26,170 nucleotides of DNA, from IMG/VR virus record IMGVR_UViG_3300047548_000846, positions 1 through 26,170 of that record. One strand, given 5' to 3'. The position numbers and the translations under genes are program-made. The stretch comes from a virus. Below the pieces are notes generated by a model. The model worked only from the letters and a program-made list of their open reading frames with translations, was not told where the DNA came from and made no database searches. This document shows positions 4,606 to 12,393 of this stretch, piece after piece; the first letter of the stretch is position 1; each line of letters starts with the position of its first letter.

Positions 4606-4930
4606 TGTTATCATCCTTACGACGGTTCTGATGATAATCCTGACGAATGTTACCAGTGCTAATATATTTCCACCAAGGAGGTAGATAGGGTGTAGTGGCG
4701 AATACCGCAGCTAAACCTATATAAAATAAAGCTCCGTACCAAGAATCCGCCCGCTGATTATACCATTGAATAAACATGAGAGGTATAGGCATCGAACCAG
4801 CGAGTACAAAACCACTTAATCGGATTATTTTAGACAGGTCTAAGTTCTTCGCCCCTAAGTCTGCAGCTCGCACAAACAGAGTAATAGAGATGATTAGTAA
4901 CGCAATAGAGCTGACGAATAATAACAACAT
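4592..4930 (-). CDS. Small membrane protein, holin or antiholin candidate
   Basis: A 112-residue protein with about three hydrophobic segments: residues 1-22 (MLLLFVSSIALLIISITLFV), about 38-55 and about 64-83 (GALFYIGLAAVFATTPYL), then a charged C-terminal tail rich in Arg, Asp and Asn. It lies between another small membrane protein and the spanins, which is where holins and antiholins are found. No specific holin family is recognised. The ribosome binding site GGAG lies within the last codons of the upstream gene, so translation is probably coupled. Position and topology support a lysis role; the precise role is inference. Confidence 0.6.
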   Translation of the reverse strand: MLLLFVSSIALLIISITLFVRAADLGAKNLDLSKIIRLSGFVLAGSMPIPLMFIQWYNQRADSWYGALFYIGLAAVFATTPYLPPWWKYISTGNIRQDYHQNRRKDDNNEPT

Positions 4931-4931
4931 G

Positions 4932-5312
4932 TTATTCTCCTTTTGGACTGATTAAAGAAAGAAGTCTATCAAAAAATTGATCTAGTTTCTTGATAAACAT
5001 AGGTATCACCCACCTGGATAACAAGGATGAAGTGATGGCTAAGGGCGAAGCGTGTTTCTCTACCTTATACCACTCGAAGCCTAGTAAATCTGGTAGAATA
5101 GATGTACAAGCTGTGCCTACAACAATACAGGCAAAAGAGATTAAGAATAACATTTTTCTGGACTCTGTATTTTGAGAAAATGCGAATCCAGCTATGGTAC
5201 CTACAAAGGCGCCAGTTATAACGTATAAAGGTTGACCGAATACTGGAATCAAGAAATCATGATTCAAGTTGTAAGCAACACCCAACGACGATATTATAAT
5301 TATAGGTAACAT
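4932..5312 (-). CDS. Small membrane protein, holin candidate
   Basis: A 126-residue protein with hydrophobic stretches near residues 2-13, 27-46 (YVITGAFVGTIAGFAFSQ) and 54-75 (MLFLISFACIVVGTACTSIL), an amphipathic helix near 88-110 and a basic/acidic tail. It is directly downstream of the endolysin gene. That endolysin lacks a signal peptide and so needs a holin to reach the wall. The start has AAGGAA 6 bases upstream, overlapping the endolysin stop. No named holin family is recognised. Having two adjacent membrane proteins suggests a holin/antiholin or holin/pinholin pair. Confidence 0.6.
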   Translation of the reverse strand: MLPIIIISSLGVAYNLNHDFLIPVFGQPLYVITGAFVGTIAGFAFSQNTESRKMLFLISFACIVVGTACTSILPDLLGFEWYKVEKHASPLAITSSLLSRWVIPMFIKKLDQFFDRLLSLISPKGE

Positions 5313-5776: not shown

Positions 5777-6133
5777 TCAAATATTGAGTTCGTTAAAAGC
5801 TGATTCTTCACCAATTAAAGCCATCATATCGTTTAATGCCCCTGTAATGGCGGCTAATTTTAAGGATGCTACTTTATCAGTATCTAACGCACTACCGATT
5901 AACAAATCAGCTTTCGGACATGAAACAGTGTGCCAGCCCTCAAAAGTTCCTAGTAACGCTGATAACTTCGGAGAGGAATCTAGTTCAAGAGCGAACGCGC
6001 AAGCTGTAAACCCAAACATACTAGCCGCCGCTCCAGATGCGCGAGTAAGACGTACTGAGGCATACTGCCCATCAATGGAGTAGCCTACTTCGTCAGGTGC
6101 TAAATTTGTTAATTCAATTTGTTCAATAGTCAT
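5777..6133 (-). CDS. Conserved-looking phage protein of unknown function between J and endolysin
   Basis: A 118-residue acidic protein, mostly soluble in look: MTIEQIELTNLAPDEVGYSI at the start, an Ala/Gly-rich middle (RASGAAASMFGFTACAF), a GTFEGWHTVSCPKADLLIG segment and a helical end. No family is recognised and no signal peptide or clear membrane segment is seen. It lies immediately after J (AAGGAT overlapping the J stop region) and before the lysis genes. Genes at this site in other phages include tail-fibre chaperones, superinfection-exclusion proteins and small virion proteins. Nothing in the sequence decides between them. Confidence 0.7.
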   Translation of the reverse strand: MTIEQIELTNLAPDEVGYSIDGQYASVRLTRASGAAASMFGFTACAFALELDSSPKLSALLGTFEGWHTVSCPKADLLIGSALDTDKVASLKLAAITGALNDMMALIGEESAFNELNI

Positions 6134-6141
6134 AATAATCC

Positions 6142-6567
6142 TTAAGGTTTTTGGTTTACGTTATGTGTTGCAATTCGTAGTGATGGTGATTCACCTGCAA
6201 AGTAACTGTTATCACTAACTGAAATCTTGCTTACTAAGCGTTCTCCTACTGGCAGACAAGATACACAATTCTCCCAGCGAAGTACACCAGCCCCATCAAA
6301 TACTAGCACTTCTTTGTTAAGCATTTCAGTAATCATAGCGACTGAACCATCCCGCAGAGTCATTGGTGTGCAATCACTTGCAACAACTGCCGCACCTGAC
6401 TCAGAAACAATACGAGTACAGTTAGCTGGAACTTGGATATTGTGCTGTACTTTTTGCAGGATAGGCACTAAATCTTCTGGGTTGTCAGAAGAGCATTCAA
6501 TAAACTGACCTACTGTGACCTCACCTGCTTGTCCAAATTCATCAATCCACATATCAGAGGCGACACA
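6142..6567 (-). other. Hint (hedgehog/intein)-like domain at the C-terminus of J
   Basis: Residues 1943-2083 of J. It starts at Cys1943 directly after a GGGGDPPEEP linker. Block A-like: CVASDMWIDEFGQAGEVTVG. Block B-like: VSESGAAVVASDCTPMTLRD, in which the usual TxxH His is not seen. Block F-like: VGERLVSKISVSDNSYFAGE, and it ends with IATHN and five more residues. The order, size (141 aa) and the terminal His-Asn fit a Hint fold. There is no Cys/Ser/Thr directly after the HN, so classical splicing is unlikely and self-cleavage or a purely structural role is more plausible. Assignment is by motif reading only. Confidence 0.6.
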
Positions 6568-9500
6568 AGGTTCTTCTGGTGGGTCACCACCTCCCCCGGT
6601 TGCGGCATCTGGAACAGTAACCGAAATGGTCGTAATCCATACCACATTATCATTTCCGCTTAGGTCTAAACCATTTGTAGTTACATTCAAGGTTTTTGAA
6701 CCACCTGTAAATCCATCATCAAGATAATATAATTTATAAACAACGGTTGAGTCGCGTGTTTGGTTTACATTTGCACTGGAACTGTTGTAACTAACCGTAG
6801 CAGACCCAATCTTTAATGACGCGGCTGACATACTAAAGGATACAACAGCGGGTGATGCGCTTGTAAACGTAGCGGATGCAGACAACCCCGTCCATCTGCT
6901 CGGCTGACTCGCAATAGTTACACCGCGCAAATTTCGTTGGTCGCCAATTTGGTGACCGCTTGAACCAACGCGCAAACCCAATCTACGCACACCGCCAACG
7001 TTGTAAGAGTCCTGCATAGCAAGCCTACCGTGAACTGAGCCGTCCTCGATGTACGCCTTATCTAAATTGATAATTCTGCGGATTTCTAAGCTATTAATTC
7101 TCCAATGCATAGGCGTTGTAGTTATAACAATCGCTGAACCCGTGGGATTACTGTAATGCACCAAGGCATAAGGAATACCGTAAGCCGCATTAGCAGGAGC
7201 AACTTGCGTCATTTCAAACTCTGCATTAGCGCCTACTTGTCCTGAATGAAGCGTTGAAGGGTTTCCTAAATAGTTATCATTTTTATCAAAAAAACGTAAC
7301 CCAACATTACACACCACCGCTAAACCCGCAGGCACAACGGAGTCATAATCTTGCCTCGAAAATACTTTGATTGCAAATCTATCACCTGAACGGGCAGGAA
7401 TATAATTGTTTTTTTCGGCAACAGATTGGTATGCAGAGGAATAAGCTGGTACTGTTACGTTACCAACATTTCCTATAGCTAAACACCAGCCGTTAGTAAC
7501 GGTATTATAATTACGCCAACAAGCCATCCCAGATGTTGATGTTTCATAAGCAAACCAACCATCACAAATTTGCTCAGGCGCAATTCTATACGCTTCGGGT
7601 ATGCCCGTATAATTGTTAATGAAATGACCGTTGCCGACTAAGTTATCCCCTAATGGTTTTACTCCTCTACCATCACTGGCGGTATACTGCGCACCGTCTG
7701 CAACATACTTAGCTATAGAATAAATTTTATTTAAAAGGAGTTGTCTTGCATAATAATAATTATTAAAACTGGCTTTAAAGTTGGTTCTATTTATATTGGT
7801 TTTTGCAGTTATGTTGTTCCAAGCCGGTGATAAACTGTTTAAATAATTATTTAAATCCGTTTTTGTGGTTTGCCAAGACCACCGTTCCGTAGTTATGCCA
7901 TAACTTGCCGCTTGTGCATCAATGCCAGCATATTCTGCATCAATATCGGTAAATTCTCTAATCACTTGTATTTTTTCAGACTTGCTTAACACACCATCTG
8001 CGGAAATGTCTGCTAATTCTGCGTTTGCTGTATTAGCATTTGACTGAGCTGTATTTGCGGCAGTTTGGGCATTGTTTGCGGCGTCATGTGCCGCTTGTGC
8101 CGCTTTACCGTCTGAACCAGCAGACCACGGTGATAGTTCTGTTTGATTTACTTTAGCTTCACCAAAATAGGTTCGAGAAATAAAAAGATACGAATCTGAA
8201 CCTGAATTACATTTTGATTTTCTAACATCCATCCTAACCGTTACAGCACCAGCTGGTGCGGTTACTATCATGCCTCGTTTGTCGTAACTTGATAAAAACT
8301 TACCACCTGAAATGTCATAAGTAGAGGTCAAACTTCCGACTTCTGAAATATACACGCCTGCCGAATCATAAAAAATAGCATTTACATGATAATTGCAACG
8401 GTGATTACCGAAATATCCAAACATCTCATAACGTTTACCAGCTACGACATTAAATGCTCCTAATGAAAAATCCGTATGCCCTGGAGAACCAGTCCCTACA
8501 ACTGTTTCTTGTAAATAAGCCGTATTTTCACCTGTTAAAGTCCAGTCAGCTGATAGGTTATAGCCAACTGTATAAGTGCTTCCAGATGGATTCCAAGCCA
8601 TAATTATAGCATCCGCTCCCGAAAAAAATTGAGAGTTAAGCATTTGATTACTAGACTGTGGAGATACTAGTGCGGTATTTGCTGTACCCTGCGCACCGTC
8701 TGCAATAGTTTTTGCGGTTGCATAAATCTTATTTAAAAGGGTCTGTCGCGTGGAATATACATCGGCAAACTTGGTACGGAACGTAGTCCCTACTATGGTT
8801 GTATTGCCACTTAAATTTGACCACAAAACAGGAGATGTTAAGGTAGCCAAGTAAGTAGTAAAGGCGGAAACCGCAGTATCGTAAGCCGTTTTTTCAGTAG
8901 TAATACTATAGGCTGTAGCTTGAGCGTCAATACCTGCCTGCTCCTGCGTGATAACGTCCCTATCTTGAATTACCCGTGGTTTCTCGTCCGGAGTCAATAC
9001 AGAATCCGAAGCAATATTAGCTAAATCAGCATTTGCGGTATTTGCGGCAGTTTGGGCATTATTTGCGGCAGTTTGGGCATTATTTGCGGCAGTTTGGGCA
9101 TTTCCAGCCGCTACATTTGCGGCATACCAATCTTGCGCCAATATCCAACTTGGGTGACTATACACATACATCTTGTTGTTATCGTCAGTGTCTATCCAAA
9201 TATCACCGTTGTCTACTGCGGTTTTACCTGTCGGCGCGGAACTTTGATAATGCACTAACGCTTTACCATCTGCCGTAGATTGGGCTGTTTGAGCTGAGTT
9301 AATAGCGGCGGCAATTTGACTATCTTGGGTTACTATCCAAGAGCCGCTTCTGTATGTGTAAATCTTATTACCATCATCAGTGTCAAACCAAATATCGCCT
9401 TCGTACATACCTGTGGCAGGTGCGGTAGTCTGGTAAAACGTTTTAATAGCTCCGTCAGCCGCCGCTTGTGCTGAAGAAGCAGAAGCTAAAGCGGCGGAAG

Positions 9501-12393
9501 CATTCGACGCAGCCGTGTTAGCTGTAGATTGAGCTGCATCGGCTAAAGCTTTAGCCGATGCCACTATCTTATTAACCAAAACCTGTTTAGCTAAGTATAC
9601 ATCCTGGAATTTAGTGCGGAATGTGGAACCTACTATATCTGTAATGCCCGCTAAATCAGAGTATAAAAATGGTTGCGTTAAAGTGTTAAGATACGTAGTA
9701 AGAGTCGTAATGGAGTTAGAATAAGCCGTCTTTTCCGTAGTAATACCATACGATGTAGCCTGAGCTTCTAAACCGGCTTTTTCACCTAATATAACATTGT
9801 AATCGGCTAAAACCGAACTCTTTTCAGTTGGAGTTAATATATCATCCATATCTACGCCCACAACCGTTAAGCTGTCGGTTATAGCTTCGGATTTAGCCCC
9901 TTTATCTGTTACGGAATACACGCTGACATATACAGTGTCACCTGCTTCGATAGTATCAATATCGAAAGAAGTGGCTGTGGATTTAGGTCGTGGAATCCAA
10001 TTACCTTCGTTTATTTTATAGCTAGATTCAAAATCAGGTCGAACACCATTTACAGGTGGTGAATCCCAGGATACAATGACTTTAGAAAAGCTTCGGCCTG
10101 CTGAGTTTACGATTGATTCGGATACAACTAAACCTGTAGGAATTTCAGGTTGCAAAATCCTAGGCATATGAAGGCTATAATTTGGAATGGTTAAAGGCGT
10201 ATTAGATTCGATTAAAGCAAATTTATCCGGATAGGTCCTTAAAGCTAATATAGTAAATATAGCTCCGTCATCTTCAGGCGTGATACCTATGGTTTTAAAA
10301 GTTTGAGGTACCGCGCTTGAACTAGAGATTATCCATACTGTGTCAGGTAAAGGTGCTAAGCTAAAAGCCAGGGAAACTTCCAGCACCGTATGAGTGCCAG
10401 CTCCAGTTACAATGTTTCGAGTTTCTAAACCTCCAGCTGGATTAACTACAGTTAAAGAATAACCAGTGGTTATAGTTATAGGTGAATCTATAGTGACGTG
10501 GGTCGTAGTGGCGGCAACTAATCGACCACCACGACGTTCTCCAGTAATAACAGGGTCTGATATAAGTATAATATCGCCTGGCAATGGAATGTTGCCATCT
10601 AGACCGACTTTAAAATTAACTAAATCTGTTTCAAATCGCTCGGTATAAATTAACCAACGACCTACGCGCCGAGCTTGACCTTGAGAGGTGCAACCAATAG
10701 CGTATATATCTGTAGGTCGCACGACGCCCATTTCAGCAATAGATTCATCATCCGCCACATACTCTACTTTAGTACGGTATCGGTCCGCAGGGTCATTCCA
10801 AGTGACCAAAGCCACGTTATGACGAACTTTAATGGAAGATCCGGTATAGTTAAACATACCGTCTACTACGTTGGCTTGTGTAAAATGGTATACAGGGTCA
10901 GACGGGCGATCAGCGATAGGTGTAATAGTGCCTGCGCCCCAATACGTCATAGCTCTAAATACAGCCGCTAACGAAGTTATTAAAGCATAAGCATCTTTAG
11001 CATCTTGAATATACGTATTACATGTATATCTAGGCTCTAAGCCACCTATACCATTAGGCACTAGCTCATCACAGTATTGAGCTATAGAGTACAACGCCCA
11101 TTTATCCATTGATTCTGGAGTAATGTGTTGGCCTGCTCCGTAACGATTATTAGTACATAAATCGTAAAAAATCCAAGCTGGATTATTGGACCATTTAACT
11201 ACAAATAACCCGTCCCATATACCTGAGTAAATACGAGTTATAGGGTCGTAATTAGACGGTACCTTAATTTTTAACCCTCGTATATGATAGCCACGAGTAG
11301 GTATCGCTGGAAATTGCTTAGAAGCCATTCGTAAAGCCACTAAAGCTGAATGCGGATAACTTAACTTCTCGTCGACTATTTCAGTATAAGAATCCCAGAA
11401 AGTGGAGTTCTGCAGGGATACGGATAAGCTGTCAGCGGTGATTCGCGTTACTTTTATAATATATGGAGAAGGTCCAAACGCTTTTAAATTAATTACATGT
11501 GAGCGCTTATATCGGCTGGTCGTTTTACCTGTAACGGTTGCTACAGGTTGAGGAGAACCAGTAGCCTGATTTACTATATTTACAGTTCCAGGTATGGCTT
11601 CATTAGTGCTTACCAATACAGCCCTTAATTCATATATAGCCAAAGGTACATTTAAAATCTCGATGAACTTAGACCGATAGCCAGCTTGAAGATTAATTAA
11701 AGGTTCGAATACACTAGAAGAACCTTGAGATAACACTTTGGATTCGCCGGCTACTGACCAGGTTGAAGCAGAACCTAACACGCGATACTCCAACCTTACC
11801 GTAGTAGCTGTGGATGTAGTAGCTTGATTAGGGGTGTAGTGAATAGCCGCACGAATATATGAAGTAGGAATAACAGTATTTAAGCCGGTGAAATTAACCC
11901 AAGATCCGCCACCTATATTAGCGTCTACAAACGCGCCTCCATTAGATGATACAGAGATTTTATATTGTACAGTAGTACCTTTAAGGTCACCGTTAGAAGT
12001 GTTTTGCAACGATAAGGTAGGGATACCGATACTAACTCGAATCCTATCTACGTCTGGATTCGAAATAGACCGGCTAATAGGTAAAGCTTGCTCCACCTGA
12101 ACGCCTACAGCCACTTCAGATTCAGTACCAGATATCATACCGATAGAAGCTTGGCCTGCGGTACCCACACGAGTTTCTACAGTGACGCCATCAAAATTAA
12201 ACGTACCGTCATTATTTTGAAGCTGAATATCATCGAAGAAAATCGACTTCATATCGGCTACTAGGCCTTCGATTTCGCCTTCACTAATTAAATCTAAAAT
12301 GCTAGCAAAGTCGTCTGAAGCCAAGTCATCCGGAGATTCAACCGGAGCACGTGGGGCTGCGCTTTTACTACCACCTGAACCTCTAATACTCAT
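6142..12393 (-). CDS. J: Tail tip attachment / host-specificity protein J, with C-terminal Hint-like domain
   Basis: A 2083-residue central tip protein (lambda gpJ type) that closes the tail tube and contacts the receptor. The N-terminal about 740 residues match the gpJ hub (ILDLISEGEIEGLV near 32-45; GLKIKVPSNYDP; DLCTNNRYGAG). An FN3-like domain follows (about 745-850, GLVVSESIV to YVSVYSVTDKGA). Then come three tandem helical modules, each starting LTPTEK/LTPDEK/LSKSEK and ending near LLNKI...A(D)GAQ (about 851-960, 1132-1235, 1467-1570). Between modules 1 and 2 are Ala-rich coils and two GDIW(F/I)DTDD motifs; jelly-roll-like domains follow modules 2 and 3. After a Gly/Pro linker, residues 1943-2083 look like a Hint domain. 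The ribosome binding site is weak (AGG), with the start just after the stop of I. The C-terminal half should govern host range. Confidence 0.93.
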   Translation of the reverse strand: MSIRGSGGSKSAAPRAPVESPDDLASDDFASILDLISEGEIEGLVADMKSIFFDDIQLQNNDGTFNFDGVTVETRVGTAGQASIGMISGTESEVAVGVQVEQALPISRSISNPDVDRIRVSIGIPTLSLQNTSNGDLKGTTVQYKISVSSNGGAFVDANIGGGSWVNFTGLNTVIPTSYIRAAIHYTPNQATTSTATTVRLEYRVLGSASTWSVAGESKVLSQGSSSVFEPLINLQAGYRSKFIEILNVPLAIYELRAVLVSTNEAIPGTVNIVNQATGSPQPVATVTGKTTSRYKRSHVINLKAFGPSPYIIKVTRITADSLSVSLQNSTFWDSYTEIVDEKLSYPHSALVALRMASKQFPAIPTRGYHIRGLKIKVPSNYDPITRIYSGIWDGLFVVKWSNNPAWIFYDLCTNNRYGAGQHITPESMDKWALYSIAQYCDELVPNGIGGLEPRYTCNTYIQDAKDAYALITSLAAVFRAMTYWGAGTITPIADRPSDPVYHFTQANVVDGMFNYTGSSIKVRHNVALVTWNDPADRYRTKVEYVADDESIAEMGVVRPTDIYAIGCTSQGQARRVGRWLIYTERFETDLVNFKVGLDGNIPLPGDIILISDPVITGERRGGRLVAATTTHVTIDSPITITTGYSLTVVNPAGGLETRNIVTGAGTHTVLEVSLAFSLAPLPDTVWIISSSSAVPQTFKTIGITPEDDGAIFTILALRTYPDKFALIESNTPLTIPNYSLHMPRILQPEIPTGLVVSESIVNSAGRSFSKVIVSWDSPPVNGVRPDFESSYKINEGNWIPRPKSTATSFDIDTIEAGDTVYVSVYSVTDKGAKSEAITDSLTVVGVDMDDILTPTEKSSVLADYNVILGEKAGLEAQATSYGITTEKTAYSNSITTLTTYLNTLTQPFLYSDLAGITDIVGSTFRTKFQDVYLAKQVLVNKIVASAKALADAAQSTANTAASNASAALASASSAQAAADGAIKTFYQTTAPATGMYEGDIWFDTDDGNKIYTYRSGSWIVTQDSQIAAAINSAQTAQSTADGKALVHYQSSAPTGKTAVDNGDIWIDTDDNNKMYVYSHPSWILAQDWYAANVAAGNAQTAANNAQTAANNAQTAANTANADLANIASDSVLTPDEKPRVIQDRDVITQEQAGIDAQATAYSITTEKTAYDTAVSAFTTYLATLTSPVLWSNLSGNTTIVGTTFRTKFADVYSTRQTLLNKIYATAKTIADGAQGTANTALVSPQSSNQMLNSQFFSGADAIIMAWNPSGSTYTVGYNLSADWTLTGENTAYLQETVVGTGSPGHTDFSLGAFNVVAGKRYEMFGYFGNHRCNYHVNAIFYDSAGVYISEVGSLTSTYDISGGKFLSSYDKRGMIVTAPAGAVTVRMDVRKSKCNSGSDSYLFISRTYFGEAKVNQTELSPWSAGSDGKAAQAAHDAANNAQTAANTAQSNANTANAELADISADGVLSKSEKIQVIREFTDIDAEYAGIDAQAASYGITTERWSWQTTKTDLNNYLNSLSPAWNNITAKTNINRTNFKASFNNYYYARQLLLNKIYSIAKYVADGAQYTASDGRGVKPLGDNLVGNGHFINNYTGIPEAYRIAPEQICDGWFAYETSTSGMACWRNYNTVTNGWCLAIGNVGNVTVPAYSSAYQSVAEKNNYIPARSGDRFAIKVFSRQDYDSVVPAGLAVVCNVGLRFFDKNDNYLGNPSTLHSGQVGANAEFEMTQVAPANAAYGIPYALVHYSNPTGSAIVITTTPMHWRINSLEIRRIINLDKAYIEDGSVHGRLAMQDSYNVGGVRRLGLRVGSSGHQIGDQRNLRGVTIASQPSRWTGLSASATFTSASPAVVSFSMSAASLKIGSATVSYNSSSANVNQTRDSTVVYKLYYLDDGFTGGSKTLNVTTNGLDLSGNDNVVWITTISVTVPDAATGGGGDPPEEPCVASDMWIDEFGQAGEVTVGQFIECSSDNPEDLVPILQKVQHNIQVPANCTRIVSESGAAVVASDCTPMTLRDGSVAMITEMLNKEVLVFDGAGVLRWENCVSCLPVGERLVSKISVSDNSYFAGESPSLRIATHNVNQKP
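8053..8073 (-). repeat. Distant identical copy of the 21-bp J repeat
   Basis: This 21-mer is identical to each of the units at 9040-9102. It lies 987 bases (329 codons) from the first unit there, so recombination between them would remove one whole module in frame. Confidence 0.88.
9040..9102 (-). repeat. Three perfect 21-bp tandem repeats inside J
   Basis: The + strand unit ATTTGCGGCAGTTTGGGCATT occurs at 9040-9060, 9061-9081 and 9082-9102 without a mismatch. On the coding strand each unit encodes seven residues of an Ala/Asn/Gln coiled segment (AQTAANN). An identical fourth copy lies at 8053-8073. Being multiples of 3, gains or losses of units keep the frame. Confidence 0.9.

Follow-up and report, generated by a model that had tools for sequence, protein, structure and literature searches.

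A predicted, divergent Hint-fold module without the block B histidine at the C-terminus of a phage host-specificity protein J and of other virion proteins

BIL domains carry the block B histidine, hedgehog Hog domains have a sterol-recognition part and no terminal His-Asn, and on phage tail fibres the Peptidase_S74-type intramolecular chaperone is a C-terminal module that processes itself. Type A BIL domains end in His-Asn and have no nucleophile at position +1; for these, a sequence of Cys1 thioester formation, C-terminal Asn cyclisation and ligation by attack of an amine on the N-terminal thioester has been proposed (PMC4031507). The block B histidine (His B:10) belongs to the N-terminal step, and inteins without it have been reported very rarely (PMC4031507). 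Such inteins can remain active via compensation, in natural as well as in engineered cases (PMC7664689; PMC6333167). The natural Tko CDC21-1 intein, for instance, has no block B histidine and uses Lys58, which lies outside of the motifs (PMC4031507). In the Ssp DnaB M86 intein, on the other hand, activity is abolished when His B:10 is lost and Gly stands at −1 (PMC6333167). A literature search for Hint- or intein-like domains of phage tail or virion proteins turned up nothing but inteins of genes such as those for terminase, ribonucleotide reductase and gyrase.

Here, we describe a Hint-like module in a viral sequence of 26,170 nucleotides (IMG/VR record IMGVR_UViG_3300047548_000846; the whole stretch is referred to as the window). 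The module is part of the host-specificity or tail tip protein J, which is encoded on the minus strand (6142..12393) and comprises 2083 amino acids. The N-terminal ~860 residues are those of a conventional lambda-type J, matching PHROG 31 ‘central tail fiber J’ (E = 5.6e-243) and the Pfam domains FNIII-A_GpJ (3e-32) and Phage-tail_3 (2.6e-24), and this part has matches in about 1600 phage records. These N-terminal domains place the carrier in the J family; a match to NF049904 was below the cut-off of that model. Three similar helical repeats (DDILTPTEKSSVLADYNVI...), weakly resembling Pfam GA_3, are located at about residues 845–965, 1130–1250 and 1440–1560. Directly after J follows a gene for 118 amino acids (5777–6133), for which neither a PHROG nor a relative among 50,697 phage records was found. 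Near the lysis genes, between positions 55 and 2935, genes resembling those for thymidylate synthase, dCMP deaminase and DNA ligase were recognised by eye, which is unusual company for a lambda-type tail.

Towards the C-terminus of J, a beta-rich tip region (...GDQRNL...YYLDDGFTGGSKTL...; 6598..6969, minus strand) is common to other J-type carriers. Homologous segments are present in two of the other loci (L009 and L024), and Stenotrophomonas phage SOVA965 contains a similar segment without a Hint domain. The tip region is followed by the linker GGGGDPPEEP (residues 1933–1942; 6568..6597, minus strand), and a Gly-rich stretch likewise abuts Cys1 in most relatives of the module. The module itself comprises the last 141 residues of J (residues 1943–2083; 6142..6567 including the stop codon, minus strand). 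An initial annotation made from the sequence had delimited it as a 141-residue segment that starts with Cys after a Gly/Pro linker and closes with THN plus five residues, and the translation agrees: Cys1943, the would-be N-terminal scissile nucleophile (Cys1), is encoded at 6567–6565, and the protein ends with ATHN, VNQKP (6145..6159) and the stop codon. The other features that had been listed are present as well, among them the block F-like motif (VGERLVSKISVSDNSYFAG). As had been noted, the block B histidine is missing, since the T-x-x-H-P position reads S2006-D-C-T2009-P2010 (6364..6378), with Ser at B:7 and Thr instead of His at B:10. The terminal His2077-Asn2078 of block G (6160..6165) is followed by Val, in line with the earlier statement that no Cys, Ser or Thr stands at +1. 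Two features had been overlooked: Lys2056 (6226..6228) at block F position 4, where the gp41-1 intein has Asp, and Lys2082 at +4 of the tail, which has a counterpart in every relative.

The annotation had proposed that the segment is a Hint domain. A model built with AF2 from a 14-member alignment reached a mean pLDDT of 92.7 and a pTM of 0.88, and in a Foldseek comparison with the PDB the best 50 matches were all inteins, hedgehog or BIL structures, with the highest TM of about 0.8 to NpuDnaB and NrdJ-1. A profile of 23 family members searched against PDB sequences matched inteins throughout (E 1.8e-4 to 2.4e-3), among them gp41-1 (1.8e-4) and two CDC21 inteins (PhoCDC21 at 3.2e-4, the other at 2e-3). 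The alignments with the solved inteins place the Ser of the module on Thr B:7, its Thr on His B:10, and module position 114 on Asp F:4 of gp41-1. The S-x-x-T-P of the family hence aligns with T/S-x-x-H of inteins, which indicates that the block B histidine was replaced. Based on predicted structure and profile homology, the module at the end of J is a divergent Hint domain in a C-terminal position, with a Hint fold in the model and detectable sequence homology to the HINT superfamily. Scans with Pfam, including its Hint models, and NCBIfam revealed no model that covers the module, and a PHROGs scan of the copy in the window revealed no family. A comparison with a single PT-HINT sequence using hhalign gave nothing useful, and a RAG2 match in a single-sequence PDB search was dismissed as a chance hit. 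A model of tip domain and Hint domain together was based on three sequences only (pLDDT 45) and was not used.

In total, 42 copies were aligned, collected by tblastn, pattern scans of IMG/VR, from a Stenotrophomonas genome and sampled genomes, with additional copies taken from phages that already had one. All 42 form the C-terminus of their carrier, mostly after a Gly linker or poly-Gly. Among the carriers are J-type tips as well as other proteins of the tail or virion and proteins of prophages, and several phages have two or more carriers. The module is not specific to J, which the initial annotation had overlooked, but an add-on of many unrelated virion proteins. Among cultivated phages, the family is rare and occurs in 7 of 50,697 records, all from Xanthomonas, Stenotrophomonas or Erwinia phages; LucasX, DLP_6 and PhiXhv-12 are cultivated carriers. 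One more copy is located on a Microbulbifer plasmid. Six matches on different contigs of one bacterial genome (G326; L047–L053) are close in sequence to this plasmid copy. No partner gene downstream was common to all carriers. At two loci (L013:4495-5787 and L015), a conserved gene after the carrier contains an inserted endolysin-like domain (430 aa vs 223 aa in L011), and at two others (L021 and L016) unrelated genes intervene, which by eye resemble a transposase and a glycosyltransferase. One record (G008) contains, besides a module carrier, a conventional intein-like insertion in an apparent phage DNA polymerase (L044; G008:C1 about 4835-5005), which the family profile matches with E = 6.5e-4.

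Mean column identity of the module is 38% (23 copies), and dN/dS was below 1 in all six pairs tested (about 0.08–0.25 in five pairs, 0.41 in the sixth). Against this divergence, Cys1, His135 and Asn136 are present in 42 of 42 copies, Gly58, Ser64 (B:7), Pro68 and Gly125 in 41, and Gly108 and Val112 in 40. The recurrence of the same anatomy in 42 homologous copies together with the predicted Hint fold argues that the features of the module are not due to chance. Block B reads S/T-x-x-T/A in every copy; B:10 is Thr in 25 and Ala in 17 copies and His in none. At F:4, His, Arg or Lys was found in 32 copies and Cys in none. The residue after Asn136 is never Cys and is Ser or Thr in two copies only. 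The residue preceding His-Asn is Thr or Ser where B:10 is Thr and His where B:10 is Ala; residues 67 (T/A) and 134 (T,S/H) covary without exception in 35 copies. As this pattern follows one split into two clades, it is not counted as independent evidence.

The histidine lost in all copies, the changed F:4 and the missing Cys at +1 would also suit a Hint fold that serves solely as a scaffold, i.e. as a stable beta disc forming a terminal cap or an adhesive surface of virion proteins without any peptide-bond chemistry. A degenerate relative in PhiXhv-12 that has neither Cys1 nor His-Asn likewise favours this and indicates that the fold can outlive the chemistry. A mere scaffold would, however, have no reason to keep Cys first and His-Asn last in 42 of 42 copies of an otherwise mostly variable module, and we regard this explanation as rather unlikely. 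The relative itself is a free-standing Hint-like protein of 139 amino acids directly downstream of a carrier (L002:5423-5842; PV764601.1 55110-55529) and apparently a catalytically dead duplicate. Two further J-like proteins (L048 and L090) end in a more degenerate module that starts with Cys-Pro and still keeps HHN and a Lys tail.

Regarding the known systems, the module is closest in logic to type A BIL domains, with which it shares Hint fold, Cys1, the terminal His-Asn and the absence of a +1 nucleophile; the solved BIL structures 2lwy and 6y75 are among its best fold matches. It differs in that the block B histidine is Thr or Ala in all copies, that only a short Lys-bearing tail follows, and that it is carried by proteins of the phage particle. 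Class 1 mini-inteins (gp41-1, NpuDnaB, PhoCDC21-1) resemble it in fold, Cys1 and His-Asn, and the alignment with them stays in register through blocks B and F. Of the class 1 features, the module has the N-terminal Cys (42/42), whereas T-x-x-H in block B, with its His B:10, and a Cys at +1 are absent, F:4 is mostly basic rather than Asp, and there is neither a real C-extein nor an insertion in a conserved enzyme. Class 3 inteins, defined by a WCT motif with Cys at F:4 and no Cys1, can be distinguished as the module has Cys1 and never Cys at F:4. The Hog domain of hedgehog proteins (1at0 and 6tyy among the fold matches) is C-terminal as well, and transfer of its thioester to an acceptor serves as a working analogy; unlike Hog, the module ends in His-Asn and shows no match to the sterol-recognition part. 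Lack of the block B histidine is shared with the Tko CDC21-1 intein; in the J module, Thr2009, Lys2056 and Thr2076 are candidates for taking the place of His B:10. A polymorphic toxin Hint domain (PT-HINT) is not indicated, as only a short tail and no toxin domain follows. The Peptidase_S74-type chaperone is unrelated in fold and chemistry, and no Pfam match to it was detected in the J module.

By analogy with type A BIL domains, it is on balance probable that the module processes itself in one event of thioester formation and Asn cyclisation. The backbone carbonyl before Cys1943 would be transferred to this residue, forming a thioester, and cyclisation of Asn2078 would free the short tail. 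Resolution of the thioester by water would shed the tip and mature J. Alternatively, an amine may resolve it, for which the invariant tail Lys or the freed tail amine is the obvious candidate, so that the short tail would be kept on J or J would become linked. We infer the breakage of either bond, the order of the steps and the identity of the acceptor from this comparison. The initial annotation had suggested a self-processing or cross-linking module; the Hint identity withstood the comparison of a predicted fold with PDB structures, which the annotation itself had set as a refutation test, and the proposed activity appears plausible given the invariance of Cys1 and the terminal His-Asn in 42 copies. 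Against autoprocessing stand the loss of His B:10 from every copy and the mostly basic F:4. Moreover, many copies have Gly at −1, which in combination with the lost histidine is evidence against ordinary N-terminal cleavage. In light of the Ssp DnaB M86 result, this cleavage may be absent or depend on a trigger.

All 42 copies have 5–26 residues between His-Asn and the stop codon, and in each of these tails a Lys is located at +1 to +7. As a control, 143 further genes of these records were examined, and 28.7% of them have a Lys in their last seven residues. The probability of finding the tail Lys by chance is ~2e-9 if 16 representatives with less than 40% identity are treated as independent, which they are only partly. 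An overlapping Shine-Dalgarno sequence was rejected as its source, since SD-like bases were found in 7 of 42 tails. The tail lysine looks to be under selection. Its side-chain amine might act as the nucleophile on the Cys1 thioester, either ahead of Asn cyclisation or following it. Poly-Gly would then become isopeptide-bonded to the Lys peptide of the same chain or of a neighbouring subunit. The variable spacing is easier to reconcile with a flexible nucleophile than with a structural contact at a fixed place. However, the usual catalyst of the first thioester step is missing, the Lys may just as well have a part in binding, recognition or stability, and we know of no precedent for Lys as acceptor in a Hint domain; we therefore consider this route quite improbable. 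In a broader form, the modules would be a phage-specific Hint family that forms its thioester without the block B histidine and uses its own tail amine, the invariant Lys, as acceptor, so that a peptide or isopeptide bond would connect poly-Gly virion proteins with the Lys peptide, a neighbouring subunit or an amine of the host surface, which we regard as unlikely, too.

A further explanation assigns activity to the C-terminal half alone: Asn cyclisation would trim the tail, and Cys1 would be retained because it is needed for folding, forms a disulfide or takes part in redox control. The invariant His-Asn is compatible with this, as is a second Cys at position 50 in 31 of 42 copies. Yet the 11 copies without Cys50 still have Cys1, and it is hard to see what the removal of a few residues would serve, which makes this explanation very improbable compared to the BIL-like self-processing favoured here.

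The fold and the general scheme are already known, while the family, its placement on phage particle proteins, the lack of the block B histidine in all members and the invariant tail Lys are absent from Pfam, NCBIfam and the literature searched. Our analysis adds a Hint family at the ends of phage particle proteins that neither database covers. His B:10, which has been called the most conserved intein residue, is missing in every member, and both junction residues are kept. The predicted activity is directly testable, perhaps with public mass spectrometry data of virions (PXD008065; XacN1, PMC5852040); for XacN1 ORF231 (BBA65379.1), which has the tail VADQKM, the intact tryptic peptide would be YVTFSGGGGGGCVAATSYVTATK. 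If active, the module would be a natural test of thioester chemistry without His B:10 and a new way of maturing or cross-linking a phage tail.
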